A stretch of 64,000 bases of DNA, taken from assembly GCA_032622095.1 (NCBI GenBank), contig CP136061.1:193322369-193386368 (forward strand), given 5' to 3'. The notes beneath the pieces are model-generated. The model searched no databases. It had not been told where the DNA came from and saw only the letters and a list, made by a program, of their open reading frames with translations. This document shows positions 121 to 56,519 of the stretch, one piece after another; the first letter of the stretch is position 1, and every line of letters starts with the position of its first letter. Source of the DNA: Siphonodentalium dalli. Taxonomy: Eukaryota > Mollusca > Scaphopoda > Gadilida > Siphonodentaliidae. Both the position numbers and the translations under genes were made by a program.

Positions 121-520
121 GATCAAGCCTGCGAACTGTGTGTCTGTCATTTGCAGAATGAGGTCGCCAGAGAGTGAATTTAGTGATATCCCTCACAGTG
201 GGCTAGCATTACCAAACTCACCATCTGGGGACCTCATTCTACTTAGGCCTCATCTTCTGGGAAGTATATATAGCCACAATTTAACATTGTTTTTAGTTAC
301 ATTTTCCCTTCTGGGAAGTTTCAATATCCCTTAATTCGCAGAAGACAAAATGCATAATCGAGGTGACTAATAGGTGAACATCACCAAATTCAACTGGGGA
401 ACTTCAATCTGATCCTAGGTTGAGGCATAAGCAGACTGAGGTTCCCAGAGGGTAAATTTGGTGATGCTAGCCCAACGTATTACTGCAACCATCAGTTCGC
501 TTTAGGTCAACTGGAGATGA
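121..520 (-). mobile_element. Double-hairpin element, degraded copy
   Basis: Begins with AAGCCTGCGAACTGTGTG and the hairpin arms GAGGTCGCCAGAGAGTG and CACCATCTGGGGACCTC. A core follows in inverted orientation (ACATTTTCCCTTCTGGGAAG) and then the start of a second hairpin (GGTTCCCAGAGGGTAAAT). The outer end is lost beyond about 480. Family described under 3439-3876. Confidence -1.
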
Positions 521-668
521 GCAACAGGAAGGGCAGTTTATACTTGTACATGTGCATTTCTTAGTGATATGTGAAATTGGATTCATCAACTGTGACTGAA
601 TTGTCTCGTCAGTGATTCATATTTTCCTCAGCTAGCAGTGTTTCTAAATGGATTCTCCCATACAGTTA

Positions 669-1764
669 TCTCATATATATTTTGAAGACCTCTGTTTGTT
701 TGTCTGTCTTCGCGCATGCGCAGACGAGATCTCGGAAACGGGTGGAGCTATCGACTTGAAATTTGCTATGTGAATGTATCTTGCCCCGGATACAAATTTT
801 ATCGGGTCGCCGAGCCCGTGCGACGCCAGCTTCGCGCATGCGCAGACGAGATCTCGGAAACGGGTGGAGCTATCGACTTGAAATTTGGTATGTGAACGTA
901 TCTTGCCCAGGATACAAATTTTATCGGGTCGCCGAGCCCGTGCGACGCCAGCTTCGCGCATGCGCAGACCAGATCTCGGAAACGGGTGGAGCTATCGACT
1001 TGAAATTTGGTATGTGAATGTATCTTGCTCCGGTACAAATTTTATCGGGTCGACGAGCCCGTGTGACGCCAGCTTCGCGCATGCGCAGACCAGATCTCGG
1101 AAACGGGTAGAGCTATCGACTTGAAATTTGGTTTTTGAATAGCCCGGACAACGATTCTCCACCGATCGGGACGAAACTTGGTACGTGTCTGTAGTTTGAC
1201 CAGGCGGTCGACGTTTTCGTATTGGCGAGCCCATGCGGCGCCCGATTCGCGCATGCGCAGACGAGATCTCGGAAACGGGTGGAGCTATCGACTTGAAATT
1301 TGCTATGTGAATGTATCTTGCCCCGGATACAAATTTTATCGGGTCGCCGAGCCCGTGCGACGCCAGCTTCGCGCATGCGCAGACGAGATCTCGGAAACGG
1401 GTGGAGCTATCGACTTGAAATTTGGTATGTGAATGTATCTTGCCCCGGATACGAATTTTATCGGGTTGCCGAGCCCGTGCGACGCCAGCTTCGTGCATGC
1501 GCAGACCAGATCTCGGAAACGGGTGGAGCTATCGACTTTATATTTGCTATGTGAATGTATCTTGCCCCGCATACGAATTTTATCGGGTCGCCGAGCCCGT
1601 GCGACGCCAGCTTCGCGCATGCGCAGACCAGATCTCGGAAACGGGTGGAGCTATCAACTTGAAATTTGGTTTTTGAATAGACCGGACAACGTCGGGCTGG
1701 GTAGAGCTATCGACTTGAAATTTGGTTTTTGAATAGCCCGGACAACGTCGGGCTCATCGGCTAG
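669..1764 (+). mobile_element. Helitron-like element 1, non-autonomous
   Basis: Starts TCTCATATATATTTTG after an A. Ends with a hairpin (AGCCCGGACAACGTCGGGCT), then CATCGGCTAG, followed by T. TC at the 5' end, a short hairpin about ten bases before CTRR, and insertion between A and T are Helitron hallmarks. There is no Rep/helicase. The body is eight ~122-bp units around a CGCGCATGCGCAG core at 711, 833, 955, 1076, 1248, 1370, 1492 and 1614, in two blocks of four. Open frames here are products of the repeats. Confidence -1.
711..1735 (+). repeat. 122-bp tandem repeat inside Helitron 1
   Basis: Successive units begin 122 bp apart (one step of 121), each with a palindromic CGCGCATGCGC core, then GAGATCTCGGAAACGGGTGG, ending in TTTTATCGGGTCGCCGAG. 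The fourth unit runs into a different 3' part (1130-1247) before the array restarts, so the array itself appears to have been duplicated as a block. Confidence -1.
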
Positions 1765-2217
1765 TCTCATATATATTTTGAAGACCTCTGTCTGTCTGTC
1801 TGTTTGTCATTAATACAAATCTACGATTCTCGACCGATCGGGACGAAACTTGGTACATGTGTGTAGTTTGACCAGGCGGTGGACGTTGTCGTATTGGCGA
1901 GCCTGTGCGGCGCCCGCTTCGCGCATGCGCAGACGAGATCTCAGAAACGGGTGGAGCTATCGACTTGAAATTTGCTATGTGAATGTATCCCGGACTTGGT
2001 ACATGTGTGTAGTTTGACCAGGCGGTGGACGTTGTCGTATTGGCGAGCCTGTGCGGCGCCCGCTTCGCGCATGCGCAGACGAGATCTCAGAAACGGGTGG
2101 AGCTATCGACTTGAAATTTGCTATGTGAATGTAGCCCGGACTTGAAATTTGGTTTTTGAATATCGACTTGAAATTTGGTTTTTGAATAGCCCGGACAACG
2201 TCGGGCTCATCGGCTAG
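1765..2217 (+). mobile_element. Helitron-like element 2
   Basis: Begins with the same TCTCATATATATTTTG directly after the CTAG of element 1 and ends with the same hairpin and CGGCTAG. It contains two single copies of the unit seen in element 1 (CGCGCATGCGC at 1919 and 2065) and a repeated CTTGGTACATGTGTGTAG segment. Confidence -1.
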
Positions 2218-2595
2218 TCTAATATATATTTTGGGACTTCTGTTTGTTTGTTTGTCTGTTAGCTATGGCCGGGAAAACTGCCAGACTGATTTTAATGAAA
2301 TTTGACACCTAGGGATAATTTTGTCCGGGGAGTGTTTTGGACGGGTCAAATCGTGACCCCAACCTGAGCTTGACCTTCAAAATGGTCAATTCAAGGTCAA
2401 ATCGGGTAAAATGGACGGATTTCTACAAAATTTGATACCTGTGGTTACTTTTGTCAGGGGAGTGTTTTCGACGGGTCAAATCGTGACCTCGACCTGACAT
2501 TGACAATCATAATGGTCAATTCAAGGTCAAATCGCCCCCTTCGACGGATTCGATGTTAGAGAGCAGAGGGGAAACAGCCCGGGCCCACCAGCTAG
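2218..2595 (+). mobile_element. Helitron-like element 3
   Basis: Begins TCTAATATATATTTTGG directly after the CTAG of element 2 and ends CCCGGGCCCACCAGCTAG followed by T. The interior (GTCAGGGGAGTGTTTTCGAC, repeated at 2327 and 2458) is shared with the Helitron at 62745-63355, not with elements 1 and 2. Confidence -1.
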
Positions 2596-3039
2596 TAAAT
2601 GTATACATCAGAAAAGTCTATTGTCCATTTTGAGGGATGTTCAGGAAATAAAAGCAGACGACAGATAATAGAAGTGAAGAAGGATTCCTATTCTTTGGGG
2701 GGGGATATTCAGATAATAAGTTCCACAAACAACCTATGTGATAACTACTCGTCAATGAGTATTTAGTATAGAAAGGGTTTATAATGGAATACCTGGTATG
2801 GGGAATTGGTGGGGAAGTCAATTAGTCTTGTCAGTATGCTTATCCTGATATGCGGACAAATTTGGTGCATCTGAAGTTGCTTCATTGTTAGAGAATGGGA
2901 ATGATAACGATGTCATATGCCCTATAACTGAATAGTTATCGATGTAAAGTGCCTTGAAACAGATTTACTGTATAATCTGCTATATAAATTGAAACTATTT
3001 ATTAGTATTCATCTTGGCTAAAGAAGCAAAACACAGTTA
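2596..3039. other. ATR intron or downstream region, no recognised feature
   Basis: Unique-looking AT-rich DNA with a G-run near 2697. No ORF with coding character and no further ATR exon was seen on the minus strand. Confidence -1.
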
Positions 3040-3263
3040 TTAACCCTTCCATGACTGGAGCTTCCTGAAATTTTGCAAAAACCCTGTGCCAAAGCATTCT
3101 CGAATATATGTGAGCCTCGCATATATAAAGATAATACATTGGTCTAACAATATTTATCTTGACCTTGTAAGCCAGTGCATTCCCTTATACATTTGAGGCT
3201 CTAATGCACTGGCACAGGATCTTTAATGCTGCTCCAGCACAGCTACCGACATGAAAGGATTAA
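3040..3263. mobile_element. TTAA-flanked piggyBac-type MITE (family C)
   Basis: TTAA at both ends; left CCCTTCCATGACTGGAGC, right end read inward ATCCTTTCATGTCGGTAGC. Subterminal stretches such as GAGCCTCGCATATATAA and GTGCATTCCCTTATAC form inverted pairs. CCC ends and TTAA duplication are typical of piggyBac-type elements. Other copies are at 4225, 23313, 34464 and 41333. Confidence -1.
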
Positions 3264-3271
3264 TAGCTAAC

Positions 3272-3404
3272 CTGAAATCAACTCGCAGTTGGTAATCTCG
3301 GTCGTCAATAAGAGTAAGGCATGTTTTCAGCATGTGGATTGAAGCTGTACTGTTCGATCTGAGCCCTATATGTCCAAACAATCTTCTCATGCTGCCAACT
3401 AATT
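3272..3404 (-). CDS. ATR: ATR exon l (last visible)
   Basis: 133 nt; two bases complete Lys from exon k, exit phase 2. The acceptor is ATCTTTTGCAG and the donor TTTCAG/GTTAGC, a weaker donor than elsewhere in the gene. The peptide [20 protein letters not shown] is followed by [20 protein letters not shown], matching the human LLNLMEDPDKDVRVAF segment. A TTAA element begins 8 nt beyond the donor and a double-hairpin element lies 34 nt before the acceptor. The next exon is not visible to the left. Confidence -1.
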
Positions 3405-6400
3405 CTGCAAAAGATATTATTAAAGAAGGTGAATCTCCAAGTCTGCAAACAGTGTGTCTGTCATTTGCAGAATGAGGTCCCCAGAGGGTGAATATAGTGA
3501 TGCTATCCTGCATGGCAGGCTAGCATCACTAAAGTCACCCTCTGGGAACCTCAAGCTTCTTAGGCCTCAACCGCTATGGGATATCTAGAATCAGATCAGA
3601 TCCCCAGTTGAAGTTAGTGACGTTCACCCATTAGTCACCTCAATTACGCATGTTATCTTCTGAAAATTAGGGTTATAGAAACTTACCAGAAGGGAAAAAG
3701 TAACTAAAAACAATGTTAATTTGAGACTATATATAGACTTTCCAGAAGATGAGGCCCAAGTATGAAGTCACCAGAGGGTGAATTTGATAATGCTAGCCCT
3801 TACCGGGATAGCGTTACTAAATTCACCCTCTGGGGACCTCATTCTGACAAATAACAGACACTAGGTTTGTAGGCTTGTGAATCTCCTTCCTGAACTTTTT
3901 GTATATGTTCACAGGTATGTCTCGAAGGTGGTCGGTGCGATCGGCCGCCTCATAATAACAGGCCTGGGTATGAAATAATGGTTTTGAACCAGAGAGCCGT
4001 CGATTAGGAGCTTCTGTCACTCAGAAATTTTTTTTTTTCCTAAAACTGGGTCAGATAATTTGGCTATTTTTAGAACAATAAAAATAGATCTTTGTAATTG
4101 AAATGTGTAACACAAAATGTTTCTCGTGTTTTATGCGATTCATAATTCCTATATGCCTCAAAATAAGATCCCCAGAAGTTGAATTGTTGTTGATAGAAGT
4201 GGTGCCGGGAAGAGATATGGCATCTTAACCCTTTCATGACAGGAACTGCACTGGCGCAAATTTAAAGACCCTGTGCCAATGCATTCTCTTATAGATGTTA
4301 GTCCACAATAGGAGGCCTCGCATATATAAGAGAATGCATTGGCCTAACAATTTTTTTATCAATATTTCTCATATATCTTTTTTATCATTTTTTCTTACAA
4401 TCTTTAACAATTTTATCATTTTTTATCATTTTTTCTTACATTCTATAGCAATTTTTCTTATATTCTATAATGATTTTATAATTTTTTCTTACATTCTTTA
4501 ACAATTTTATTATTTTTTATCATTTTTTCTTTCATTCTTTATCAATTTTTATCATTTTTTCTAACATTCTTTAACCCTTTGAACCCTGGCTCCCCACAAC
4601 GATCGACACCATGACCCTGTGCTCCCAGTGTTATTTTTTATTTATTGTAGACTTTGTTTAGGCGCAATGGGTGGGTTCTGTTTAAGTGGTGCCACAGATC
4701 TGAAACTTTACATGTATGTCCCCCATGGACCACTGAGTATTTAAAGACCGGGATACATTGCCACACGATCTCTCCCTGGCAACGGTTGCTATGCAGCTAC
4801 CCGAAATCGAATGTAAAATGCAATTATAGCTTTTATCGACGTATTTCAGCCCTAGGAAATGGCGTTTTCGATGCAGCCCATGCCCCACTGTGAAATTTGT
4901 TATATATCTGGTCGGATGAGTGACCCAAACTTTTGTTTAAGGGTATAGCAACGGTTGCTAACCCTAAATGATCCAATGACACCATTGCCCTGAGCATTCA
5001 ATTGTTTATGCCCCATTTTAGACATTTCCTAGGCGTTTTTTCGAAATCACGTAACGAGCGTTTCGGTTGGTCTCGTCGACAATCAAATGCCAGAGTGCAT
5101 CATCCCAGAATAAATTTAAGTACTCCACCTTGGGGTGTACTGTCCATACTTATTGAAGTTGGTACATTCTTTGGTCACGGCTTCTCGTTCGGTGTAAAGG
5201 TACGTATGACAAACGAATTTGCGTCCCTTTTCAACGTATGGACATTATGATCACTGTGACTAATTACAGGTATGAAGCCACGCCCCCTGCCACGCCCCTA
5301 CCTCGACATAAGCTCCGCCCACTTCCACAACACCTCAACTACCCATACATTGATCTCTTGTTGTATCTCTACTTGACACAACGCCACCCCACTCCTGCAG
5401 CGACTGACGTCTGAATATCTCCCAGTGTCACTGTGCTTTCGTTCTCCCATTCTAACTCACAAATGGCGTAGTCATCATCAGGCCAAAGTGAAAAATAGGT
5501 GTGTTTCCACTCCCATCCATAAAAAAAACAGGGGCGGGGGGGTGGCTTTTCACTTTATTTTTATTTTTTCACTTTATTTTTTCGCGGGGAAATTCAAATA
5601 TCATATTTGTGCTATCTTTCTAATAATTATGTCATTTATGAACTTATTGTGAAGGCTAACAATGTATGTACTGAATTTCAGTGCCTTGTGTATGCATTTA
5701 AAAAACTTAAGTGCCAACACGCTGCTGGCACTTGTTTGGGACGACAAAAGAGACTATGGACTTACATCAAGAGTAAAAGGAAAGATAGTTCTGGAGTGTC
5801 ACCACTGAAGAGAAGAGGAATTATATACAGCGACGCCAACACAAAGGCAGAGATACTTAATCAGCAATTTTCATCAGTATTCACCACAGAAGACACCACA
5901 AATATACCAGCTGAGCCCATCCCGGTGAATAAAGTGGACGAAATAGTCATCACCGAAAATGGAGTACTTAAATTGCTAAATAACATCAACATACATAAGG
6001 CCACTAGACCTGACGGTATTCCTGGACGACTACTAAAAACAGTCGCTTCAGAAATTACACCAATGCTGACAAAACTCTTTCAATCCTCAATCAACCAAGG
6101 GAAAATACCAGCTGACTGGAAAGAGGCATATATCACTCCATTGTACAAGAAAGGAGATAAAACATCTGCATCAAACTACCGTCCAGTATCTTTAACATCA
6201 ATCTGCAGCAAACTTCTAGAACATATAATTCACCACCATCTAATCAGTTATCTGGAATCAAACGACCAGTTAACAGACTTTCAACATGGTTTCAGAAAGA
6301 ACAGATCATGTGAAACTCAACTTCTCTTGACGGTGGATGACTTAGCAAGAGGACTATTTAAAGGCGAACAGATCGACGCTGCACTACTCGACTTCTCCAA

Positions 6401-9400
6401 GGCATTCGACAAGGTACCGCATCAGAGATTACTACAAAAGTGCATAGGACATGGCATAAATGACAACATCTTGGAATGGATAAAGGATTTTCTCTCAAAC
6501 AGAACCCAGAGAGTCATCTTAGAAGGTCATCTCTCCGAAGAAAAACCTGTAACATCAGGAGTACCACAAGGAACAGTTATGGGACCATTACTGTTCCTTA
6601 TCTACATCAACGACCTTCCCAAATGTGTGACAGCTACACCCCGCTTGTTTGCAGATGACTGCTTGTTGTACAGGACAGTAAAATAAAAAAAAGACGCTAA
6701 ACTGCTCCAGGAAGACCTTGACAACCTTCAACTTTGGGAAAAGAAGTGGCAGATGGAATTCAATGCGGACAAATGCGAGATCATACGTATAACAAACAAA
6801 AGGAAACAAAATGTCTTGGAAACCCAGTACACCATTCATGGGAAACCACTACGATGTGTGAACTCTGCAAGGTATCTCGGTGTCAACATCAAGGAGGATG
6901 TTAGTTGGAATGACCATGTTTCTAAGATCTGTAAAAAGGCAAATTCTACAACAGCCTTCATTGGAAGAAACCTAACCAACTGCAGCCCCAACATCAAGGA
7001 GCAGTGTTACAATGCCATGGTGCGTCCAATAGTAGAGTACTCATCGACTGTATGGAACCCACACACAGCGGAAAACATCGAGAAACTGGAGAAAGTTCAA
7101 CTGAGAGCAGCCAGAATGGTCCAGAACAACTACCAATGGAGGAGCAGCCCAAGAACGATGGTGAAAAACCTTGGATGGAAATCACTTGAAGAAAGACGAA
7201 AAGATGCCACCTTGTCTATGTTCTTCAAGTGTATCAAAGGACTGGTCGTCACAAATCAAGCTACTCCACTCGTGAAGAGCAAAACCAACGCCAGAGAATG
7301 GCAGCTAACTGGGACCTTGGCTAACTGGGACCTTGGGCTAACTGGGACCTTGGCTAACTGGGACCATGACCAACTGGGACCTTGGCTAACTGGGACTTTT
7401 GGCTAACTGGGACCTTGGTTATATTTATTACATATATTAGTAGAATAGAACATTGATAATAGAATATTGTTTGTTTTATTTGTGTTATTGCTTCAAAAAT
7501 GTTTTAGATTTGTTTCAACCTGACTTAATAAAAAAAATATATATATATATATATTGTCAATCTATAAAACTTACCACTGTATCTCCTCCTGACTCTGTTG
7601 TATCAAGAAGCCAAGGAGATTCCGACAACAATTAAGATGGTGAGTGAAGGAAAGTTGGCGTGTCGCCAGAAGAAGAACACCACGGTAATGCAGGGGAAAA
7701 TCTTCAGCCTATGGGACAAATAGGACGCCAAAGAGGTCTCAACCAGTCAACTTCTCAGAGAATGCGCTCAGTTATTCGCACCAGTTCCAGAACCAGACAG
7801 GCGTGACAGAGAATGCACTCAGGTATTCTCACCAGTTGAAGAACCAGACATGCGTGACATGCGTGACAGAGTAAATACAGCATACCAGTATGGGTATATA
7901 CATGCAGATACAGTGCTACAGCCTCCATCGTGCTACACAGAACTGCAAAACCAGCAGACTTATATAGTGTTTTTATTGTGTTTTTACTGTTTTGTTTAAT
8001 GTTATTTATCTAAAATGTTAACATTTCATTTGTTTTTATCTTTCTCATGACTTAATAAAAATTGATTTTAATGAAATGATTAATAATATATCTGAAGGTC
8101 CCAGTTAGCCAAGGTCCCAGTTAGCCAGAAGGTCCCAGTTAGCCAAGGTCCCAGTTAGCCTGACTTGAGGTCCCAGTTAGCCAAGGTCCCAGTTAGCCAA
8201 GGTCCCAGTTAGCTGGATACCACGCCAGATCACGAGGCCATAACCAGCGCTACACTCAGCATCATGTGCGAGTAGATGCGTATAAATACTCCTTCTTTCC
8301 GTCGGCCATACGGACGTGGAACGCCCTATTTGAAGAGGCAGTGGCTTGCACCTCCCTGGAAGACTTTCAGAAGGAGATGCTCAAAACAGGCTACTGAGGA
8401 TGACAGAACCGATTTTTTAACTCCACTCATGATGATTTTACTTGTATTATACACAATCCTTATTTTAATTTCACCAATATTAGCTTTTAACGACATCCTC
8501 ATCCGCCTGTGCGCACAAATGCGATAATATTCCTACAGAAGACTTCTGCAGGGAGTTGCATTTTATCGGAAGAAGAGAAGAAGAAGACATGTTGACACTA
8601 TTTCCCGGATATTGGCAAAATTGTTTTAGATCTTCCGGTAAATATACACTCCGGCTTCCGTTCGGTAAATTACCGTAGGCCTATATCATCCGGTTGTTAC
8701 AGTCCGTTCATTTCAGAAGTTTTGGGACAGATGTATTCTTTGCGATTGCGTTCGCGTAAATATTGTGTAGCATTATTTTGCCGGTATATTTGGGCATGTC
8801 GTTAGTTGACGTACATTAATAATGCGGTCATAAACTCACCACCCTAATGCCGCCATGGAGCTTCATTTTACAGTGTGTCTGAAAACCACGTGCGCGTTTG
8901 TTTTTGTTTACAATCTTTTGCTATATCGGTCACAACACGGAATTTTATTGTCAGTGGGTCGATTTAATAACCAAATAAGGAGACAATTTTAGTATGCTTG
9001 TTTATGTGAGAGGTCTATATATAACAATATAAATAGTGTAGTATTAATTCACGTGGAAATAGTAAATACATCGTATTTTATTTTTCGGGATTTGGAAAAT
9101 AAATAAAGTGAGTTTCGTCGGGGGGTTTTGAGGTGGGGCGGGCGGGGGAGTGGAAACATGCCTATTTTTCGCTTTGGCCTCATCGAAATGTTCCGCGTCC
9201 GATTCCAAAATTTGCCAGACCACCTCATCTACCGAAAATGCTTTAGGCTTCATAATTCATGATGTTGTGTGCTTAAACACAATAGCGACAAGACACAAAG
9301 AAAAACATAATTATTGGAGAAGCAGACGACCGCGACGATGTATGTAAACAACAATACGTGGCGGTCGATATATGGTATACTGGCCGCTGGGGTATTTGGA

Positions 9401-12400
9401 GGTTCATGCAGCGGCCGGTTTTCCGGCCGCTCGGGTTCAAAGGGTTAATAATTTTTTTTTTAAATATCATTATTTCTTACACACTTTACCAATTTTTTCT
9501 TACATTTTTTAACAATTGTCGACTCACATATATAAGAGAATGCATTGGCACAGGGTTTTTGCAAAAAAAAAGCTCCAGTCATGAAAGGTTTAAATAAAAA
9601 TATTCATTTCTCACACTTAAGTCCAAAACAAAATTATGTTTTGTTTTACGGGCCCCGTCGCATTAGACTTCAAACTGTGCATTGAATATTTTGTATTGAC
9701 ATCACAAAAACAAAAAAATCCACACTCACATTATAAGCATATAATGAAAATAGTCCACAAAATATCTAAATTAGAACATCTTGTTAAATTGTAATTTCGA
9801 ACATTGTTTTCTATAAGTCTTTGCTTATTTGTTGCAACTGCAGTTTGGTCATAGTTAGACCATAAATTAGGCTTGTTCAGTGTCAAACATTTAATAGTTT
9901 ACGTTGCATGATTGTTTGGTTATAAAAAATCATAATATGGACCCTTCTGCAAATGAACACATGCTAGAGTACAGTATGATTTCAATGCACGAACCAAGTT
10001 CGATTTGAACCCTTTCTATTTAAAGCTTGCTAGTTTCAAGAGTAACTTTTACCAACATTAATAAGGATCAACTGATTTTACATTCAATGAAATGTTCCAG
10101 TTCTAAGTATATGTCTGTTTAAATTAAATTTAAACAAATAGAACATTGAGACAATGGTTGGGCTTTTGAATGGTTTATTAAAGGAAATATCTGTGAAAAT
10201 AAGCTAAAATACTGCTAACATAATTTTGCCAACATGCACTGCAGGCATCAGATGGTATGTCTGTCGGGGAAATAATAATGAAACCAGCCCGGCCACACTG
10301 ATTTGATTTAAAAATTGCCCGTGAAAAAAAATGCAACATAAGGCCATAACTCTGGTGAAAGTTGGCAGGCGGAACCCAAATTCCAACTTGACCTGTATTT
10401 TGGGCTAGTAAACTCACATACCAATTTCATTCCATTCAGTTGAGACTGTCTAAAGTTATCATTTTGAAACAAAAAGCAAATGGACGGACAGAGGGACGGC
10501 TGGACGGAAGGACAACCAATAACATAACACATCCCGTTCTTTAAAAACTGACGCATAAAAACAAAAGGCAGGGAGTGATATTAATTTCACGTTCATGACT
10601 TAACAATAAGAAATTCTGACAATAAACTTACTTTGCTTCACCACCAAGTCATCTCTCATTGCCAGATTCACAAATGGTATAAACATGTTAGGGTCTACAA
10701 GCTTGGGTCGCTCTCTTGACACAGGACAACTGTCATCTTCTGAAAATGTGAAGTAGTTTAGTATTAAAATATTTTGTTGGTTCCATCAATAAAAAGGTTG
10801 CACGCATGGGGTTTTGGGATCATGCGCAAAAGCCTGATAAACGGGAAACTGACTTTGCATTGCCTAATGGTAATAGTAATGCGTTACTTTTCATTTAGAA
10901 AGTAGTTGTAAGGGTAATTGTAATGCAGAAAAAGGCAAGTAATGTTAATGCATTACTTTGCAAAGTAAAGGGACTACTTTGCAAAGTAATGGGACAAAAT
11001 GGGCTCATCCCAGAAGACAAGAATAATCTCTCACCTTCAATATTGTCACAAGATAAACATCTCAACTCCAGACAGTCAAACAGTTCCTTATCATTGAGGG
11101 GCTCAATTTTTCTGAAATGAAAATCAGATATATAAAACAGATATGAAAATAAAATTTAATATATTACAGACCATCAACTAAATTTTATTTATTACAGACC
11201 TTCAACTAAATTTTATTTATTACAGACCTTCAACTAAATTTTATTTATTACAGACCTTCAACTAAATTTAATTTATTACAGACCTTCAACTAAATTTGGA
11301 TTCATCAGACTATAGTCAACAGCTTAGTACCAAAACGAAAGATTGCATACCCCATGTCCCTCGATAGAGGTGGCAGTCTAACAATGGTCATAACTCTGTC
11401 CAAGATCAACGGACCGTGACTATAATCAAACTTGGCCTGCGTCTTCTCAAATGTTAACCATGTACCAAATATCAAGAAATTCAGTTGAATATTGCAAAAA
11501 TTATCATTCGGACAATGCAACAACTGAGGCAAAATATGCCGTTTCGCCATTTCGCATTGAACCACCGCAAAAATACAATAACAATTTGAGCTTGCAAAGA
11601 ACATGTGATATACCCCTACTGTTAATGCCAAAATACGGTCAAATCAAATTCTAAGTTGAAAAAAGGCCCCATAACTCATGTGAAAATAATTGGACAGAAC
11701 CCATATTCAAACTTGGCCTGTATTACACATAACAGCTTTGGTTGAGATCAAATAATCCAAAGTTATCGGTTGGAAACCCAAATAGGTAATTTGTTAGGGT
11801 TCATCTCAATGCTGTTACGTGGCTAGCCACTTGTTACATGGTTAGTACATGGCTAGCCACATAACGGAAATTAGACACAAAACTATCTATTTTTCTTATT
11901 AATAGCCACATAAGTATCCAAATGTAAGCATGGAAGGCTAAACAGACTGACATACAGACAGACTGATTACATAGTATGACCATTTTTTCAAAAGGGCGTA
12001 TAAAAACGGGCATAACTCAATCAAAAATCATCAGACCATGCCCAAAATCAAACTTGGCCTGCATCTCAAGTTAGAACCAAGTACCAAATAACAAGAATTT
12101 TTTTTGATTATATGAATACAGTGAAACCTGTTATGAGAGACAGGTGGTCATCGACGACAGGTTTGTTCCAATTTCGACTGAACTGACATCTATCATCAGT
12201 GTTAGATGTCTGAACAAGTGAATTATTTTTATACACAAACTGGTTGAAAATGATTGTGATTATAGGTTTAGTCTTTTTTTAGTAAAGTATACTTAAAACA
12301 TAAAAAACAAGACAGTCAATGACTGTGGAGACGCTCACCTACTGTAAAGACTGAGAAGAAAGGGACTTTGAAGACTAACACAGTCAGTACTTGTCAAAAT

Positions 12401-15400
12401 AAGTTAAGACAAGTAGTTCTAAACATGGACATATACATGTAGCTCGGGATTTGCTGATGAGCCGGGCTCTTCACCTTGAAATTTCAAAGTGCACACTACT
12501 GTCAAATCTCCAACCCCCTTTTAAACAAGATAATCTTAACCATTCCATAGTCCTAAGTTCACAAAATTAATTTTGCACACCCCTCTTATGTTGAAATTTT
12601 ATAACTGGAATGGGTGCTTCAAGCTCTCAAACTTTTGGGAATTTCCAGCCTGACATCTCCCATAAAGTCAAAATTTGTGCCCCATTACAACAGATTAACA
12701 TGAAGTCGGCAAATATGGACTGTTGGTTTAAAAACATACTAGTTGGAAATTAAAATCAAATTATGAGAACTATTCATATAGTGAGTCTAAGTGTGGTTTA
12801 AGGATGTCTTATTTTTGGTGTGAAAATCTAATCTACAACTAATGTTGTATCAGAAATGAAATTTTCAAGAGGAATCTATATATTATTATAACAGTAGCAT
12901 ACAACATAGATACAGGTAGTGTGGGTGGGGGAGCTATAACTTTTACCTCTGCCCCTAGTTGAACAAACATGAATCCCCATGTATGAGATCTATTCATCTA
13001 GTAATTTTAAACAGTGGCTTTTAAGAGTTGAAGTTAATTGATTTTCCAAAAAATGACCCCATTTGAACAGATCTGAACATGCCGCCCAAGGACCCTGCAT
13101 ACCAAATATAAGCTAAATAGACTTGAAGGTTCTTGAGAAGTAATAGTTGTTAGAATTACTATGGAGGGAGAAAGTTACGGCCCTGGCATCCCTCCCATTT
13201 GAACGGGAGTCGCCTACAGGTAAGGATTTCATTTGGATTGTTGACGGATTGGATGGACAGACCAATGGATGGAAGGACTCTCTGACAGACCGACAGTTTA
13301 AATCCAACAACAGCAATATACATGTACCTCGATTGTTTGTTCATAATTAGGTATAATGAGTTCACATAGATAAGTGGTTGTTAAGAAAATATTGGAACAG
13401 CCAAGCCTGAATTCAGTGTGTCTGAAGTCCCCAAAGAGTGAAACTAGTGATGCTATTCTGATAGGTGGGATAGCATCACCAAATTCACAATCTGGGAACC
13501 TAATTTTACTTAATCCCCAACTGCTATGGGAGACCTAGGGACAGATAGAAATTCTCCAGCTGAAGTTGGCAATGTATGCACACCCATTGGGCACCTCAAT
13601 TATGCATTTTATCTTCTGCAAATTAGGGGATATAGAATCTGATCAGAAGGAAAAAAAGCAGCTAAAAATGTTAATTTGAGACTCTAGATACTTCCCAGAA
13701 GATGAGGCCTAAGCAGAATGAGGTAATAAGAGGGTGTATTTGGTGATGCTAGCCTGCTGTGTGGAGCAACATAATTAAATTAACCCTCTGGGAACCTCAT
13801 TCTACAAATGCCCAGACACTCTTAATTCAAGCTTGGAGAAAATGAAATTAATCTGATTTTAATGACCACTGAGTGATAATGTAAACAACAAGGGTGCTTC
13901 ATTGATAACACCATTAATCTCATTTAAATTATGAATGACATGAATTACACTCTCTAGGGATAGAGAGCACTATGGCATACCAGTTGTTATCTTGTTTTAT
14001 AAACATGTGTCCATCAGAGCACATGGGTGGCTTGCTGTAGTGAGAATACAAGGATATTAAAGTAATTTACTGAACATTTCTGTACATCTGTCTGTTCCTG
14101 CTTTCTCCCAAACCCTGATTTCAACCAAATATAGTGGAGTGACTAGAGGTACCTCCCCTTCCCTCCCAAAGATGTAATGTCATAGGTTCTTCACCTTTTT
14201 AATGAGTTTTTTTTTATTTAATTTAAAATAAAATATTTTATCTAATAAAAAAAAAATATTTATTAAAAATAAAATATATATAATTTTTTTTGGGTTAAAT
14301 TGAGCAATAAGTTAAATCGAAAAAATAAAAAAAAAATTCAGATTTATGTCCATAGCCCCACCCACATTTGACCCAGTAACCTCATTTGAACAAATCTGAA
14401 CCACAGTCACCCAAGGTACCCTCATACCAAATATGAACCCAATCGGCCTGACAACTTCAGAAAAGAAGTCGTTTTAAGAATTACTATGTGGAAAAATAGT
14501 TATGGTCCTGACATCAAAACTATTTGACTCGGTGACCTCATTTGAACAAATCTGAATGAGAGTCACCTAGGGAACAACCACACCAAATATGAACCAATTT
14601 GGTATGATGGTTTCAGAGGAGAAGATGTTTTAAAAAAAAGTTGACGGACGGACAGACGGACAGACAGACGGACGGACGGACGGACGGACGGACGACGGAC
14701 GAGGAGTGATGACTATAGCTCCACCGGAGACTTCGTCTCAGGTGAGCTAAAAAGAGATTTATACAGGTAAATGCATGTTAAATAATGCAGTAGAACAGCC
14801 GATAAGAGAACACATCGGGCACGTGAGTCGTGACAGTAGGAAGAACAGATTGCCAGGGCGCAAATCAACTCCCAACATAACTTGATAAAAAGGGAAAAAT
14901 AAACGTACATCAGTCGTCACTGCATGTCTTTATTTCATTCCTGTCTCACATATTATATTATTTTGAATGTATTAGTATCTTCGAATAAAACTGCAAACAG
15001 CAGAAAATTCATAAACTGGGTGTCTTTGACCCAGTAATGATTCTGAACACGTGCATGATTGACCTCAATTTCGCGACTACGGAATATCTCTTTGATGTTT
15101 CTATTGTTGCGACACAGTTCATTGTATAGTGTCTGCAAACTTCTACTAGTATTTGATGATGTCACATGGAATGATTTTAATTTAATATGAAGCCCGGGAA
15201 TGAGCATTATAAAAACTTGGAAAGCATGCATTGTCAGCGTGTTGATGGTTCTTTCAATGAGGACGCGAACTCCTGTATTTATTAAACAAAGGTTCCTTTA
15301 TGCTTCGGGTGCAGACATTAAATCCTGGCGTTGAGTAAGTTTGACACTTTGCCCTAAGCGTTTTCATGCTTCGCCACAATGAGGCAGCGACTGGATTAAT

Positions 15401-18400: not shown

Positions 18401-21400
18401 AACCCATATTCAAACTCGATCTGTATTTTGAGTTGAGAAACTCACATACCAAATTTGGTTCCTATCAGATGAAAAATGGTTGATTATCAAAGCATGTGTA
18501 AATTCTATGTCAAAGGGCCATAACTCCATTAAAAAAAATCAGATCAAACCCATATTCGATCTCGATCTGTATGTTCGGCTGAGAAACTCACATACCAAAT
18601 TTGGTTCCAATCAGATAAAAAATGTTTGAGTTGTGGCAGAATGCGTGAATTCTAAGTCGAATAAAAGGTCGGTAGACCTCATGTCCGGACGGAACCCATA
18701 TTCGAACTTGGCCTGTATCTTTAGCTGGGAAATACACATACCAACTTTGGTTCAGATCAAATAATCCAAACTGGAGTTATCGATCGGAAACCAAAAATGT
18801 TAACGGACGGACGGACAGACAGACAGACGGATGGACATACTGATTACATAATACGACCTTTTTTCAAAAAGGGCGTATAAAAATTGCATGTCTAACATGT
18901 TGAACTGGGCAGATCCTCAATGTCTAAAAAAAATACTTTGATAATCCTGTGTGGGATTTTGATTGTTCTATCTATAGTAGGTGTTGACTAGTCGACTAAG
19001 GGCTGCAGACTACGAAATACCCTAGTCGTTTCAACACTAATTTCCAGATAAACAAAGAAGAATAACTCTAGAATAGAAAATGTGAAAGTCATTTCCCCCT
19101 TTTTTGAAAGCAGTCATTATGGCGAACAACTATACCAAATTTCATTTAGATCAGATAACCCATGGCTACGATATATGCCTGAACGAAGGGACGAACGGAG
19201 GGATGGCAAAACAGACAGACAGACAAGTCAATCCAGTATATCCCTCCATTTTTTTTTCTCCAAAAGTGGGGGTATAATAATATATACGTTGGCCATGTTC
19301 ATATTTTTGTATGGCCCAGAAAGAGTATGAAATAGTAGAAATTTAGCACTTCATAACACAAGTGTGTTAATGGGATTGTCAATGAGAGGCAACACCTCAA
19401 GGTTTATCCTTCCGCGATGGTACAAGTGTGGAATCGACAAACCCGTTAACACACATGCCATTCTGTGTTTATTATACACCACCCGTCCTAGAATCCATTG
19501 ATTGAAAAATAAAAGACTTAGAACGTTTATTCAGAAAAAGACAGGGCTTGCTTTGTTATGTGTGATGATGCTTTTCTTTCAAGCAATTGGAACATTTATC
19601 GCTGAAAGTGGCATTCTAATTGGCTGACTTGTTGATGATAGTTGTTTCCGACTTATATCAAATTTATGTAATTTTACATGAACCACTTTGAAGGCCTTGC
19701 GTCCCTTTAAATTGAGACTTTTATAAATGTTCCCAAGATCTCTGTTAGAACTTAGATGTTACCAGAGGGCGCATTTAGTGATGCTATCGTGCACAGTCTC
19801 CATAGTCTCAAATTAACATTGTTTTCAGTTACATTTTCCATTCTGGGAAGTGTATATATCCCCTAATATGCAGAAGATAAAATGAATAATTGAGGTGACT
19901 AATGGGCGAACATCACCATCTTCAACTGGGGAACTTCAGTTTGATCCAAGGTCTGCCATAGCAGTTGAGACCAAAACAGAGGTTCCCAGAAGGTCAATTT
20001 GGTGACGCTTGCCCATCGTGCGGGATAAAGTTACTAAATTCGCCCTCTGGGGACCTCATTCTGCAAATGACAGACATTTGCAGGCTTGCTGTTAACACTT
20101 TAGAATTAAACTCACTGTAGAAGGTCATAAACAAGATGGTTTCCATTTGGTCCAATGTGATATAGTAAATCGGGAAAGGCTTCAGTGGCTGCTTTCTGCA
20201 TGGCCGAGTTCCTGTCAGTCTGAAAACAGGTAATTCAGAGTTATAAAAAAGATATTGCATTGGCGGAGCTAGCATACCCCCACGGTGACAAATTTGAACC
20301 GTCAAAGTATGGTTGAGATATCTGCATGGAAAAAAAAAACCAACATTTTTATATAAACAAAGATTAATAACTGTAGAATGGAAAACATGAACAAAACGAT
20401 TGAACGATCAATTGATTGCCATCATAGTAGTGAACATCAATACCAAATTTCATTGATATCCATCAACCGGTGGTGGAGATATCTGCTCAGACAGACCAAA
20501 AAAACACCAACATTCCAGATAAACAAAGATAAATAACTCTAGAATGGAAAATTCGTGAAGAAAAGATTGAATGCTCACTTGAATGCCCTCATAGTAGTGA
20601 ACATCATACCAAATTTCATTCAGATCTGTCAACCGGTGTTTGAGATATCTGTCCAGACAGACTTAATGGACAGACAGAAAAACCCGATGGATAAAAAATG
20701 CCTGGAAGGACGTGGGGTTAATCCAGTACACTCCCAATCTCTTCAAGAGGGGGGGGGGGGGGGGGTATAATTAAACATATATGACTTCGGCAGCTGCATT
20801 CTGCAGGTCCCTGTCAGTCTGAAAATAATCGACTTGCTGTTAGATTAAACACCTCTGCTTAATTTCAATGAAGTCCAGACTATCTATTTTACAACCCCTT
20901 TTCATCGCTTCTTTGCAGTCGTTCCCAGGAAATGGGAGCGATTGCTCTCGTATGCACTTGCAATTTTTAATTCACGGGTGCTAAAATTCGCACTCGTCCC
21001 TTGTCAAAATGTTCATTGTCATTTTGGCATATATGTATATTGGATTAACTGGACATAGATCTATCCCAAAATGACATTTTGTTTGAGAAAAACCCAACTT
21101 ACGATTATATTATGGGCGCAATTACAACCGTCTTCTGAATTGCAAGAGCAATTAAATGCTCTCACTGTGTTTTCCTTGTGGGAAGGACTGCTTCTTTGTG
21201 ATTGATGCTAAATTAGTATTGGATTGTATTTTAAAAACCACTAGTTCCAGATGAACAGAGGATAATGGAATGGAAATGGAAACACGAAACAAAATTTCCC
21301 CCTCTTTTGAAAGCAGTCATTATGGCAAACATGCACAACAAATTTCATTCAGATGCGATAACTCATGGATGACCGGATGGACAGACAGACAGATAAATGG

Positions 21401-22050: not shown

Positions 22051-22101
<51 letters not shown>

Positions 22102-25100
22102 TTGACTCCAGACAAGATAGCATCCATCATGACAGCCGTTTTTCATACCAGGCCCTAAGTCAATTTGTAGCAAATTATAGCAGGAAAATCTAGTCAAATG
22201 TATACAAATGTATATATTTTCATGAAGCTAAGACATAATGGGTAAGTTCCTCGACTCGAATCAAATATTTTGTACCCCGAAGCCAAAGAAATAGTAGTTT
22301 AGGGGTGTTTAATCAGATTGAGTACCTTTACAATATTAGATGAAGAGAATGAAATAATCCTCAAAGGCACGACATCTTCAAATTATATAAGGGTGTGCAC
22401 AGGACAAATTTGGAGGTGACAGGTATGTAATAATTTCAGAATATTTTGAGCCCTGGCTGCATGGTGTGCCAATGGATTTAGTCATACAAAGTGTAGAATC
22501 CAAGATGTATGTTGGCGGCCACATTTTTAAATTCGGAAAAAATTGATGGCTCCCATCTAGTGGTCACCCCAAAAATTCAACAGCTCCTATCCAGAGGCTG
22601 TTCAAAACAAGCCTGTAAATTTTCAAAACAATTTGATAAATGCGGGCTGCAGGGTGTTCCGATGGATTCAAATTTGAAATCCAAGATAGCTGCAAGCAGT
22701 CATGTTTTTCAACTTATTTCAGAAATATTTTATAGCTCTCATCTAGTGGGCACCCCGAAGATCAATATAAAGTTTGGTGACAATCAGATGAGAGATGTCA
22801 CCTGTAGGGTGTGCTAAATGAAATTGTAGACGGATGAACGGATGATGGATGCCAACAGATCCCAATGGCTAAAACTTGACTTTGTCCGATTGAGCTAAAA
22901 GTGAGCGGACCGAACCCATTTGAACTTAACCTGCATGGGTGGTAGTCCACATACAAAATTTGAAGAAAAAAATCAGTGATTTCTATAGTTCATGAAAAAA
23001 AGTATTCAGGGTACAAAAACAATAATTACACATCAGAGAAGGTCGTGGTTGAGTTACGGCATAAGGAAATGTGTGCGTTGTCAAAAATTTTGAATATTTG
23101 TTGGAGTGAATTGGGGCAGGATTTGTTTTCAAACTCATTCCAAGATATTCATGAAACAAATTTGGTCAAAATTGGATTATGTCTATTGGAGTTAAAACAT
23201 TTACATCGCGACATAGAAAGATGCCCATTCATAAAACTATAGTCAAATTTGATACACAACAGTTCACAACTTGACCAATGATGATAGAGAGTAAGAATGA
23301 CATGGATATAAGTTAATCCTTTCAAGATGGGAGCTGCACTGGCACAACATTAAAGACCCTGTGCCAATGCTTCCTCTTATAAATGCGAGTCGACCATAGG
23401 TCGCCTCGCATATATAAGAGAATGCATTGGCCTAACAATTTTTTATAAATTTTTCTTACATTCTTTAACAATTTTAATAATTTTTTCTTACATACTTTAA
23501 CCCTTTGGAGAGTATCTGTAACGTCATATACATGACGTCACAAGTAAATTTAACGTCAACGTCATAGCAATAATTATTAACAAGTTCGGGTCAAAAGTGT
23601 CCAATAATTCATTTTAATTTATGTGCATTTTTTTTTAACGTGTGTTATCATAATCGATTGCACTTATACATTCGGGACATTATATTAATCAAAATAAGTC
23701 CTATACAAATCATTTATAAATCATATGATTTATTGAAGTTATGTCTACATAAAAGAACACTTCCTGAAACGACATATATGTCGTTCTACTCCTCAACCGA
23801 TAGACGACATATATGTCGTTCTACTCGCCAAAGGGTTAACAATTTTTTGCATTTTTTATCATTTTTTCTTAAAAATTCAGAAAGCTCCAGTCATGAAAGG
23901 GTTAACCTCTTCACCACATTCTACAGTGGAAAATATAATGGGAAAGTCGTGAAAACCATTCAATTGATTTCATGCAAAGGCCACTATAATAACCAATCCT
24001 GAAACATCATACAATGTTTGAAACATCAAGATAAACTGGTTAAGTCGCACTAATTTCTTCATTCCTGTTATGAATGATGGCCGCCTGCTAGAGCACAGCA
24101 GTAGGTCTGTATTCAGTACAGACATATAGCACACAGCGTGACATTTTAGGTCCATACTCAGTACTGCCATATATCAGCCAAGAGGTTAACTAACCATTTC
24201 TGTACTTTGACTAAAATATATTCTGATGGTGCCTGAGCACCTGTGGTTTTTGTGAAGATCGAAATTCTAGTTTGTGTTTTCGAACTTGTTTCAATTTTTA
24301 CTCAAGTTAAAAGGTTGCAATAACCACCCATTTGGAGTTCATACCCACCTATTTTGTCGCTCAAAGAGTTACATATGTGTGCAACTGACTTAGGGTCAGC
24401 TAGTCGCATGTCCATCCAAGATGCGTCGTTCTGAAGAGAAAAAAATACATTATGAATACTGACAATCGAGAATTGAGGAAAAAGATAGTTGAATAATTGC
24501 ACCCAGTGACCAATCACCCTCTAGCAAGCAGAAATAAAGTCTTAAACATACCCTGTCCGATTTATTACCCCTAAATTACTTTTTCTATGGCTCAGGGGGG
24601 GGGGGGGGTGTAAAAATATATTTTATTTGTCGAGGAACCATAAATCTATTTATTATCTACACCTCAAATTGTTGTCAGACTAGCAAAAATTACACCAGAA
24701 ATATATATGGATATGCGTAGATGGCGTCATTACAGTTTGGGGAACACGCAAGGTTGCGTTTAGTGGTGGCTTTGTGATTGGAAATGATTCTCAGAATAAA
24801 CAACGAATATTATCACCAGAAACAAAATTAAGAGCAAAGAGGTCAATATTGACCCCAGCCAATCAGAAACAAGCACCACTCCGACATACTATACAAGGAG
24901 GACCATAATCAGTACAACAGAGTCCTGAAGAAGTTTCACATATATACGAAAGATAATCTACTTAGTGTTGAAACGATTAATCGACTAATCGAAATCGACA
25001 CGATTAGTCGATTCCAAAATCGGCTAGTCAAAACATACCCACCACCATTATGCCATCGCAAAAGCAGTGCTGTTGCTGCTGTTACCGAATTACTGGACAA

Positions 25101-34100: not shown

Positions 34101-37100
34101 TTCGGGTTTGAAAACTAAACCCGACCCTACAACATTATAATATGTAAAATACAAAATAAAATCCCGCCATTCTCCCAAAATTATGATATAAAATCCTGCT
34201 ATTCTCTCACAATTATGTTTGGGGATTATTCATAGTTATTAGTGTCATGATGTGAACATAAAGACTCCATATGTTAGCCATTGTTACAGAAGTTTAATTG
34301 ACATATTACATCTCTATTTTCGTTGTATAGCGACTACATATCAATTTAAATTTTGCAGCACCCATTACGCCCTATAGAACGTCCACTTTGCCTATTTTTT
34401 GTGGCAGAGCGAAGTCACTTCGCCCTGAAATTATGTTCTTGGCTGGTCCGTAAACAGTACCCTTTAACCCTTCTATCACTGGAGCTTCCCGACATTTTGT
34501 GAAAACCCTGTGTTATTCTCCCATATGGAGCCTCACATATAAAAGAGAATACATTTGATATAATATTTACCTTGACCTTGTAAGCTAGTGCATTCTCTTA
34601 TATATGCGAGGCTCCCTGTGCAATACTCGCATATATAAGAGAATGCACTGGCACAGAATCTTTAATGCTGCACCAGGGCAGCTCCCATCATGATAGGGTT
34701 AATAATTGATCCAGTGCTTACAAAAACGGTGACAACATGTTTTATTTAATAATGAAAGTGTCAATGACACTGTTGCTCAACTTGGGAGTTTATTTTTTCA
34801 TGAGCAAGAGTAGAATGATAAAGAAGAAGGAGGGCCAAAAAGTTACAATAAAGGTCTTGTATTGTGTAGATGAAATTATTTTCTTTTCAAACATTTCACC
34901 AATAAATGTGGGTTTTGAAATCCATGGCAGCCATGTTTTATCACAAATTTCGGAAATAATTGATGGCTCCAATCTAGAATCACCCCGAATATCCCTATAA
35001 AGTTTGGTGACAATTGGATGAGGGATGTGGACTGTAGGGTGTGCCAAAGGATTTAGTAAGGCACGGAGTAAAATCCAAGATGGCCATGTTTTTTAACGAA
35101 TTTCGGAGATAATCGATGGCTCCCATCTAGAGGTCACCCCAAGGATCAATATGGAATTTGGTGATGATCGAATGAAGGATGTGGCCAGTAGGGTGTGCCA
35201 AAGGATTCAGTCATGCAAAGATTAAAATCCAAGATGGCCACTGGCAGCCATGTTTTTCTACGAATTTCAGAAAAATTGATGACTCCCATCTACAAGTCAC
35301 CATAAAGATCCATATAAAGTTTGGTAATGATCGAATGAGGGATGCGATCTGTAGGGTGTGCTAAAGGATTCAGTCATGCAAAGAGTAAAATCCAAGATGG
35401 CTGCCGACATCCTAAACATGCCTGTAAATTTTCAAACAATTCTCCAATAAATGCAGGCTGCAGGTTGTGCCGATGGATTAAAATTTGAAATCCAAGATGG
35501 CTGCTAGCCTCCATGTTTTTTTGATGAATTTCTGGAAAAATTTATAGCTCCCATCTAGAGGTCACCCCGAAAATCCATATGAAAAATTTTGTAATTATCG
35601 GATGAGAGATGTGCCCTGTAGGGTGCGCCGAAGCATTTAGTAATACAAAGAGTAAAATCCAAGATGGCTGCTGGCAGCCATGTTTTTTGACAAAATTTGA
35701 AAATAATTGATGGCTCCCATCTAGAGGTCACCCGAGATGAAGTTTGGTGGCGTTTAGATGAGAGATCTCATCTGTAGGGTGTGCCAAAGGATTTAGTCAT
35801 GCAAAGAGTAAAAAGATGGCTGCTGGTGGCCATGTTTTTTATTGAAAAATCGATAAAATTTGACAGCTCCCATCTAGAGATGATCCTAAACATGCCTGTA
35901 TATTTTCAAAACAATTCTCCGATAAATATGGGCTGCAGGGTGTGCCGCTGAATTAAAATTTGAAATCCAAAATGGCTACTGGCGGCCATGTTTTTTAACG
36001 AATTTCGGTAAAAGTTGATGGCTCCCATCTAGAGGTCACCCCGAAGATCCGTATGAACTTTGGTGATGATCGGATGAGGGATGCAGCCTGTAGGGTGAGC
36101 CAACGGAAATTGTTGATGGACAGACACAAGGATGGATGACAGACACCAACCCACGGCAATAGCTCAAAATTTACAAAGTAAAGTTGAGCTAAAAAATACA
36201 GTGGAAACAGTGAACAACTTATAATTTCGGCTACCAAGATTGTGAAATATTTTATCTGTTTTCAAATTTTTGAGATCTAGTTCATTTGAAATTTGATTTG
36301 AATTGATTTGATCTCATGCCAAATATTAAATGGCTCAAGTTGATATGATACCATGGACAACAATTGGCATCTAAGCAGGTCGCCAGGATAACTTTGGACA
36401 ATTCTACATACTTGGACAAGAAATGATGGCACCAATAGACTTGATGATACATGTCAGGCTTTCTGTAAAGGTAATATCAGTCATCTCATTCATAAAAAGC
36501 CTCAGATATTTCTTCCATAGATCAGGTAAATCAACGTTAGACATCTGCAGCCACTTCTGGAGCAAACTTGAATGACTGAAAACATGCAATATATCTTTTG
36601 TTTTCTCACGTATATAGAGGATCTTTAATGAGTTGAAATTCTATACAAAATTTATTGCATTTAGTAGATGAGGCTAATAAATTTTCAATAGAATTGTGAT
36701 AAATTTGAGATCCTTTTCATCACATAATTACATTTTAACAAGGAAAAACGATCTTGAAATGGCTGGGTTAAAAACAAATAGTGATTTCCTTATCACAACC
36801 AAAGATGAAGTAAAGACACTTTCAAGAAAAATTAAAGTCCCTTTTTAAATGTGTCTTTTCTTGTTGACAAAATTGGTCAAACTCACTTATCCCCCATATT
36901 TATCTCACAGTCAACACTAAACAACCCAACACAAATTGAATATCAGAATTATATTCTAATTAACATGATAACATTGATTGATACAGGGCTTCACGATATC
37001 CGGATTTTAATACTGACTAGGATACTGAAAATGATATTGAGGTATTACTAAATATCATCGCCAATAAACTTGAGTAGAACTGTTTGAGCATGATACCGTA

Positions 37101-41332: not shown

Positions 41333-41607
41333 TTAACCCTTCCATGAATGGAGCTTCTCGAAATTTTGCGAAAACTCTGCACCAATGCATAGGATCATAT
41401 AGGCGAGTCTCCCATAGGGAGCCTCGCACATATAAGAGAATCCATTGGCCTAACAATATGTATTTACCTTGACCTTGTGAGCCAGTGCATTCTCTTACAT
41501 ACACATGTATGCGAGGAATCCTATGGGAGACTCACCTATATAACAGAATGCACTGGCAAAGGATCTTTAACGCTGTACGAGCACAGCTCCCATCATGAAA
41601 TAGTTAA
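41333..41607. mobile_element. Family C TTAA MITE
   Basis: TTAACCCTTCCATGAATGGA left; TTAACTATTTCATGATGGGA read inward from the right. Begins 17 bp after the preceding palindromic MITE. Confidence -1.
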
Positions 41608-43447: not shown

Positions 43448-45076
43448 AGACAAGCCTGAACAAATTGACTGACATTTGCAGAATGAGGTCCCCAAAGGGT
43501 GAATTTAATGACACAATCCTGCAATGCAGGCTAGCATCACCAAATTCACCCTCTGGGGACCTCATTCTGTGTAGGCCTCAACTGCTATGGGAGACATAGC
43601 ATTAGGTTGAAGTTCTCCAGTTAAAGTTGGTGATGTGCACCCATTGGGCACCTCAATTATGCATTTATATTCACAAATTAGGGGATATAGAAACTAAACA
43701 GAAGGGCTAAAGTAAGTAAAAATGTCAATTTAAGTGCCTATATACTTCCCAGAAGATGAGGCCTAAGCAGAATGAGGACCCTGGCTAGTGTATTTGGTGA
43801 TGCTAGACTGCTGTGCAGGGTAGCATAACTAAATTCACCCTCTGGGGACTTCATTCGGCAAATGCCAGATAGAAGACAAATTTAATCCAATATATACCCC
43901 CCCCCCCCCCCCCATTTTTCTTTGAATATTAGTCGTATGATTTCATCTGGATAAGTGGTGATTAAAACAATAATATGAAATGGCCAAACATGAATTTAGT
44001 ATGTCTGACATTTGCAGAATTAGGTCCCAAAAATGTGGATTTAATGACAATATTCTGTAAGGCAGGCTAGCATCACCAAATTCATCCTCAATCTGATTAG
44101 GCCTCAATGGCCAATAAAACAAAGGAACAGATTGAAGTCCTACAGTTGAAGTTGGTGATACACACCCATTGAGCACCTCAATTATGCATTTTATCTTCTG
44201 CAAATTAGGGGGACATTGAAACTGAACAGGTGGAAAAAAGTGACTAAATCAATGAAGTCCTACAGTTGAAGTTGGTGATACACACCCATTGAGCACCTCA
44301 ATTATGCATTTTATCTTCTGCAAATTAGGGGGACATTGAAACTGAACAGGTGGAAAAAGTGACTAAATCAAACTGTCAATTTGATACTTAGGATACTTCC
44401 CAGAAGATGAGGACTAAGCAGAATTAGGTCCCTGGCGGGTGTATTTGGTGATGCTAGCATGCTGTATGGGGTAGCAACACTAAATTCACCATCTGGGGAC
44501 CTCACTATGTAAATGTCAGACACACTATTTCCAGACTTGAACTTCTTGAAGAAATCAAAGCCATTCACAGTATCAATGAATGTCAGTCATCACCTAACAT
44601 TGAATGGAAGCACCAGTTTGTTGTTAAATTGCTACAGATATGTTTAGATTAGAATAATACATGTCATCTGGCCAGTTTATATAATTAATGACCTGTACCT
44701 TTACAGATATATATGCCTCTGTGGTGAGAAGAGGTATTAAATTGAGAGGTGATATGGCTTGGAAGGGATGTTGGTTGATGGCAGGGTTGGGCCTGGGCCA
44801 TGTGGGAGGGGGTGGGTGGGGGAGGGTGGAATGTTTCCATAATTTCATTAAAGAGTAAAGTTTCATAACTCTGCAGATGTTATATATAATGGTGTCACTT
44901 TTTTTTCAAATTTAAAAACATGTTTAAAAAAAATTGTCTCAGAAGATGAGGCCTAAGCAGAATAAGGTAATTGAGGGTGTATTTGGTGATGCTAGCCTGC
45001 TGAATGGGGTAGCAACACTAAATTCACCATCTGGGGACTTCATTCTGCAAATGTCAGACACACTATGTCCAGGCTT
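43448..45076. mobile_element. Cluster of three double-hairpin elements
   Basis: Hairpins of the family occur at 43472-43570 and 43780-43865, at 44005-44095 and 44425-44520, and at 44960-45060 (right half only). Each has GGTGATGCTAG and CACCCTCTGGGGAC-type arms. A C-run at 43899-43914 separates the first two. An unrelated segment lies at 44540-44940. Confidence -1.
44133..44370 (+). repeat. 120-bp tandem duplication in a double-hairpin core
   Basis: TGAAGTCCTACAGTTGAAGT starts at 44133 and again at 44253; the units differ by one A in a run and little else, so this is a recent duplication of the core only. Confidence -1.
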
Positions 45077-45289
45077 GGAGAAATGAACAATGGACTATTC
45101 ATTGTAGACTCTGGTAGAATAGTTGTTTAGCTAATGTCATGTTGTGTAATGACAGATGGTAAACTGGTCTGAAGCAAGCAGTCTGAAGCAAGAGTATCGG
45201 TTGACCACACTATGATAAATTGGCTTTTTCAATAATACAGGCTTCAGTGTTCTCTTAAAAATTAATAGTGCATAGCAAAGAGGTCTGAA

Positions 45290-51399: not shown

Positions 51400-51415
51400 T
51401 ACAATATCTATCTGG

Positions 51416-51478: not shown

Positions 51479-51539
51479 GGAATACCATAACATAACCAGA
51501 AGAAAATGAAAATAGTTCGGACGTGACCCATTTTCTACA

Positions 51540-56480: not shown

Positions 56481-56519
56481 CCCATGCTAAACATGTCTTT
56501 CACTACCACTGAGCGGTGT

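Follow-up and report, generated by a model that had tools for sequence, protein, structure and literature searches.

A five-deep nest of transposable elements in repeat-rich DNA of Siphonodentalium dalli

Introduction

The nesting of transposable elements has been reported across eukaryotes and serves to order their insertions, and programs such as REANNOTATE and TEnest resolve clusters of this kind (PMC2672092). TTAA elements lying within other TTAA elements have already been described (PMC2872659). The inverted ends of piggyBac elements terminate in the motif CC[C/T]T, as described in PMC2872659, with CCCTT given as the most conserved sequence of these ends (PMC10813416). PIF/Harbinger elements make a 3-bp target duplication (PMC2213677). 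In Galileo the inverted ends contain internal tandem repeats, the copies are bounded by 7-bp sequences, and the family is defined by a P-type transposase (PMC3573991). A survey of bivalve transposons contributes nothing specific to the nest described here (PMC10294476).

Overall architecture of the nest

The nest lies in a 64-kb stretch of S. dalli DNA, the whole of which is referred to as the window. At 4225-9593, in repeat-rich DNA, five elements are contained one within the other. From the outside inwards these are C, D, H, a LINE and P:

4225..9593, no strand assigned: C, layer 1; TTAA-flanked with CCCTTTCATGAC-type ends, putative piggyBac-like non-autonomous element
4571..9448, no strand assigned: D, layer 2; TTAA-flanked with ends CCCTTTGAACCC on both sides, putative piggyBac-like non-autonomous element with about 1.18 kb of sequence of its own
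5478..9182, no strand assigned: H, layer 3, with its TCA duplications; GGCC-ended with a 3-bp duplication, putative PIF/Harbinger-like element
about 5740..8588, + strand: LINE (non-LTR), 5'-truncated, layer 4; reverse transcriptase and AAG-rich 3' end, boundaries approximate
7288..7295, + strand: left target duplication of P, ACGCCAGA, 8 bp
7296..8221, no strand assigned: P, layer 5; 926 bp, tandem-repeat inverted ends, foldback-like layout
8222..8229, + strand: right target duplication of P, ACGCCAGA, 8 bp

The five-level containment had been claimed in the original prediction and is borne out by the ends, the flanking duplications, the repeats and the reverse transcriptase homology; the coordinates proposed for C, D, H and P are exact to the single base. 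It had also been claimed that each layer is bounded by its own target duplication. Such duplications are observed directly for four of the five layers (C, D, H and P), but none that is convincing accompanies the LINE.

Family evidence for all layers is drawn from the 64-kb window alone. When the own sequence of each layer was searched against it, D, the LINE and P were each found only once, and the recognition of these three therefore relies on structure, joined in the case of the LINE by protein homology. No transposase domain was found in six frames of 1-30002, where RVT_1 is the sole Pfam family above the cut-off.

The outer TTAA-flanked elements

The own sequence of C amounts to about 0.49 kb, split into 4225-4570 and 9449-9593, and the flanking TTAA lies at 4225-4228 and 9590-9593. 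Over 23 bases, its two ends agree as inverted repeats at 20 positions, and the terminal motif is CCCTT on the left and, one base off, ACCTT on the right. Four further copies of this family, each with TTAA at both ends, lie elsewhere in the window (3040-3263, 23313-23905, 34464-34702 and 41333-41607). The closest of the ten pairs of copies is that of 4225 and 23313, with a K2P distance of 0.162 over 117 columns; the distances between the copy at 4225 and the remaining three are 0.256-0.287 over 91-117 columns. Both members of the closest pair contain a T-rich array, which in C is as follows:

4374..4560, no strand assigned: T-rich tandem array inside C, found by Tandem Repeats Finder, with TTAA positions

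Some units of this array contain TTTAACAA, which provides a TTAA target. Those at 4404 and 4498 remain, and that at 4571 has been used by D. The bases around the D insertion, ACATTCT-TTAA-TAATTTT, equal the repeat unit of C but for one base. D is flanked by TTAA at 4571-4574 and 9445-9448 and has the inverted ends TTAACCCTTTGAACCC on both sides, matching at 16 of 16 positions including the TTAA.

A TTAA target duplication of the piggyBac type is seen in C, in D and in the four other C copies. The CC[C/T]T motif of piggyBac inverted ends is likewise present, D having CCCTT at both ends and C having ACCTT at its right end. No DDD transposase was found in either by six-frame Pfam comparison of 1-30002. 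Judged by their ends, C and D are thus probably piggyBac-like and at most non-autonomous.

In 40 order-3 Markov simulations, TTAA-flush inverted 12-mers matching at no fewer than 11 of 12 positions average 0.05 per 64 kb, with a maximum of one; C has 11 matches and D has 12. In the real window 17 pairs reach this level, and a single repeat group at 38-48 kb accounts for 11 of them. This control is lenient and understates the repeat-rich background, as most of the 17 real pairs are inverted copies of other repeats. At a threshold of at least 10 of 12 the window holds 23 pairs, where the simulations average 1.5 with a maximum of four. Of these, C and four others were accepted as elements (D, 23497-23839, 54924-55408 and 57043-57685) and 18 were set aside by judgement, namely 281-3719 (inverted copies of another repeat), six weak pairs at 10/12 and the 11 of the 38-48 kb group. 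The elements at 54924-55408 and 57043-57685 have the ends AGGTACTCAATC and AGGGGTACTGTA, which match at 12 of 12 positions each and are unlike those of C and D.

A second nest is present in the window. The C copy at 23313-23905 holds a different TTAA element of 343 bp at 23497-23839, with CCCTTTGG-type ends (TTAACCCTTTGGAGAG and TTAACCCTTTGGCGAG), which sits at the TTTAA of a T-rich repeat in its host. A foreign TTAA element is therefore found in two of the five C copies, which are exactly the two with an array, and both D and 23497-23839 lie at the TTAA of a TTTAACAA-type unit. The C copies hold 12 of the 459 TTAA sites of the window, or 14 if the two used sites are counted, and by our own arithmetic the chance that at least two of four accepted elements fall in C copies is about 0.5%, a post hoc figure for four elements from hand-chosen pairs. 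The long C-family members with TTTAACAA arrays might on this basis act as landing pads that draw in other TTAA-specific transposons. This reading is considered unlikely. Taken together, the C copies have 12 to 14 TTAA sites in their 1495 bp, and the resulting density of 8.0 to 9.4 per kb is near the window value of 7.2; one nest-bearing C copy, with its own TTAA ends counted, has a density of 16.

The GGCC-ended element

H proper spans 5481-9179, of which about 0.85 kb is its own sequence. Its inverted ends match at 26 of 29 positions, and TCA is found on either side at 5478-5480 and 9180-9182. An arrangement of this type was seen in none of 200 simulated 6-kb regions; in the real sequence the same scan also gave a pair within the arms of P, at 7337-8213. 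A distant relative, H2, lies at 61952-63631 with GGCC at both ends and TTA on both flanks. The ends of H and H2 are 74% identical over 109 nt and 71% identical over 90 nt, and their interiors show chance-level matches only. The likeness is confined to about 100 bp at either end and so does not define the inner part of H independently.

PIF/Harbinger elements make duplications of TNA form and have GG-type ends, and other superfamilies also make 3-bp duplications. H and H2 both carry a 3-bp duplication, TCA and TTA respectively, and Pfam detects no DDE transposase of the Harbinger kind in H. Its ends suggest that H is PIF/Harbinger-like, with other superfamilies that make 3-bp duplications as further candidates.

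The truncated LINE

The coding pieces of the LINE lie at about 5745-7295 and 8230-8394, or about 1.7 kb in all, with an in-frame stop at 6684-6686. RVT_1 is detected within 5523-6683 (4.9e-26), and the stretch 6687-7295 gives a weak match (0.046) below the Pfam cut-off. When X is substituted for the stop, the domain is matched at 1.4e-31 over profile positions 5 to 205 of 205. The reverse transcriptase is of the LINE type, its best solved relatives being an RNA-directed DNA polymerase chain and LINE-1 ORF2p, followed by R2. The last 14 residues may resemble the ends of CR1/Jockey-type LINE proteins, and the AAG-rich run at the 3' end is taken to be the tail. No relatives, including uninterrupted ones, were confirmed in viral_contigs or genome_contigs, which are viral and prokaryotic collections and hence little informative here.

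The 517 codons on the left side of P contain one stop, and the 55 on its right side are free of stops. The original prediction held that removal of P restores the reverse transcriptase frame. In support, the frame goes on for 55 codons past the duplication and is the sole stop-free forward frame there, although codon usage does not distinguish it: the mean log-odds is -0.012 for the continuing frame and 0.007 and -0.097 for the other two, and 19 of 295 control stretches reach the value of the continuing frame. The LINE frame is likely to be continuous across P.

A comparison of 5481-5790 with 8395-8760 yielded no convincing target duplication. Eleven exact matches of at least 7 bp join the two regions, but near the predicted junctions no exact match exceeds 6 bp. 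The longest of the eleven, TTTGGGAC (8 bp, 5735-5742 and 8721-8728), is a possible duplication; its left copy directly abuts the predicted left junction, but it was not accepted because the right copy is found 133 bp outside the apparent AAG tail. By estimate, about 1.5 8-bp matches are expected in the area compared, and about 0.06 at a distance of up to 10 bp from the left junction.

The innermost element

The arms of P are built from 16-bp tandem units (GCTAACTGGGACCTTG), about seven to a side, in inverted orientation to each other. The arms match at 35 of 35 positions between 7302-7336 and 8181-8215. The outermost 6 bp are not an inverted repeat (GAATGG against, reversed, GGTATC). The flanking ACGCCAGA is the sole 8-mer common to the two 40-base stretches around P. 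No Pfam domain besides the neighbouring RVT_1 was found over 7296-8221 in any frame, and no relatives were confirmed in outside viral and prokaryotic collections. Since 8-bp duplications are made by several superfamilies, P is not assigned to any one of them.

Genomic context

The nest had been proposed to lie in an intron of ATR, which the present analysis does not support. Five pieces of vertebrate ATR gave no tblastn match at E 0.01 (best E = 1.4); one of the five is confirmed as ATR by PDB search, and the pieces cover part of the protein, such that short exons may be missed. As no exon was found with them, an intronic location of the locus is not shown.

The wider Pfam scan covered all six frames of 1-45002 and four of the six frames of 49001-64000, or 22 of 24 frame-chunks. 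In these read-through translations, RVT_1 is the only family above the cut-off. Matches to DUF7563 (0.08) and CR_prot_dom_plant (0.07) fell below it and were dropped, as were RPA43_OB (0.21) and DUF6366 (0.14) in the scan that located RVT_1 at 5523-6683. Rfam gave nothing at gathering scores.

Several other repeats occur in the window. One family recurs many times in either orientation and in part forms inverted pairs, such as the ends of 281-3719; its copies lie at about 124-472, 3431-3889, 13423-13839, 19747-20088, 40322-40745 and 43451-45081, one of which lies just to the left of C. A 122-bp unit is tandemly repeated in two arrays of about 3.6 copies each at 708-1668, and 22052-22101 is an unbroken run of 50 C.

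Order and age of the insertions

The nest is best explained, with a probability of roughly 0.88, by ordinary successive insertions of non-autonomous and dead transposons of common kinds. The piggyBac-like D would have entered a TTAA site within the piggyBac-like C, and the PIF/Harbinger-like H would then have inserted into D. A 5'-truncated LINE copy may next have landed in H by target-primed reverse transcription, and finally P, a small DNA element that makes 8-bp duplications, would have inserted into the LINE. As no transposase is recognisable in any of them, the DNA layers were presumably moved by enzymes supplied from elsewhere.

The order of insertions had been regarded as fixed. This is so for the containment, that is for which element joined which, but not for the separate arrival of each layer, since a loaded element can move as a unit, as has been suggested for CMITE-IN of corals (PMC2872659). 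Fewer arrivals than layers would result if an element came already loaded, for example if H entered D carrying the LINE and P, or if D entered C with its load. In favour of this, every outer DNA layer has kept both ends and its duplication, and for CMITE-IN, a TTAA element that carries another, both occupied and empty alleles have been reported (PMC2872659). The window contains no second copy of any composite, however, and the loaded lengths of 3.7-4.9 kb would probably need to be moved in trans. A composite arrival appears unlikely.

It is less probable still that one or more layers have been misread and that the LINE belongs to H as a captured or old segment, with no insertion of its own. 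The lack of a convincing target duplication at its ends would fit with this, as would the likeness of H and H2 being limited to their ends, which leaves the interior of H without an independent definition. Against it stand the AAG-rich terminal run and about 1.7 kb of coding sequence with one stop, and LINE copies that are 5'-truncated and lack a clear duplication are not unusual.

The expectation that age falls inwards can be put to a weak test here, between C and the LINE only, whose ages are gauged in different ways. Over its 572 codons the LINE shows a single stop and no apparent frameshift; if neutral, this would correspond to about 1.2% substitution (95% 0.03-6.4%), a rough figure from the stop count. 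The K2P distance of 0.162 over 117 columns between the two array-bearing C copies sets an upper bound on the age of C, as family copies may have differed before inserting. With the difference in measures borne in mind, these values are consistent with the outer layer C being older than the LINE.

A nest that can be resolved this cleanly provides a useful worked example of how the element families of this genome may be dated relative to one another. It also cautions repeat annotation, in that a single LINE or DNA element may be split into several fragments.

Comparison with known systems

The nest resembles the clusters resolved by REANNOTATE and TEnest in that containment gives the relative order of insertion; that it is built of small DNA elements and a LINE is a difference of detail (PMC2672092). 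Four superfamilies had been counted in it, and four kinds of element is a reasonable figure, but C and D are of one kind and P is foldback-like by layout only.

C and D share the TTAA duplication, the CC[C/T]T ends and the lack of a transposase with piggyBac/TTAA MITEs such as the coral CMITEs and CMITE-IN (PMC2872659). The insertion of D into C is also similar to CMITE-IN, each being a TTAA element in a TTAA site of another (PMC2872659). The comparison is by description rather than by sequence, and in contrast to CMITE-IN this nest gives no sign of a loaded element moving as a unit (PMC2872659).

P has the inverted ends with internal direct tandem repeats that typify Galileo and Foldback-like elements (PMC3573991). 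It differs from Galileo, which has 7-bp flanks and a P-type transposase, in its 8-bp duplication and in the lack of a transposase domain or other recognisable coding sequence (PMC3573991). Nests of this sort are common in genomes; the present one shows no new mechanism, and nothing found in it goes beyond the kinds already described.
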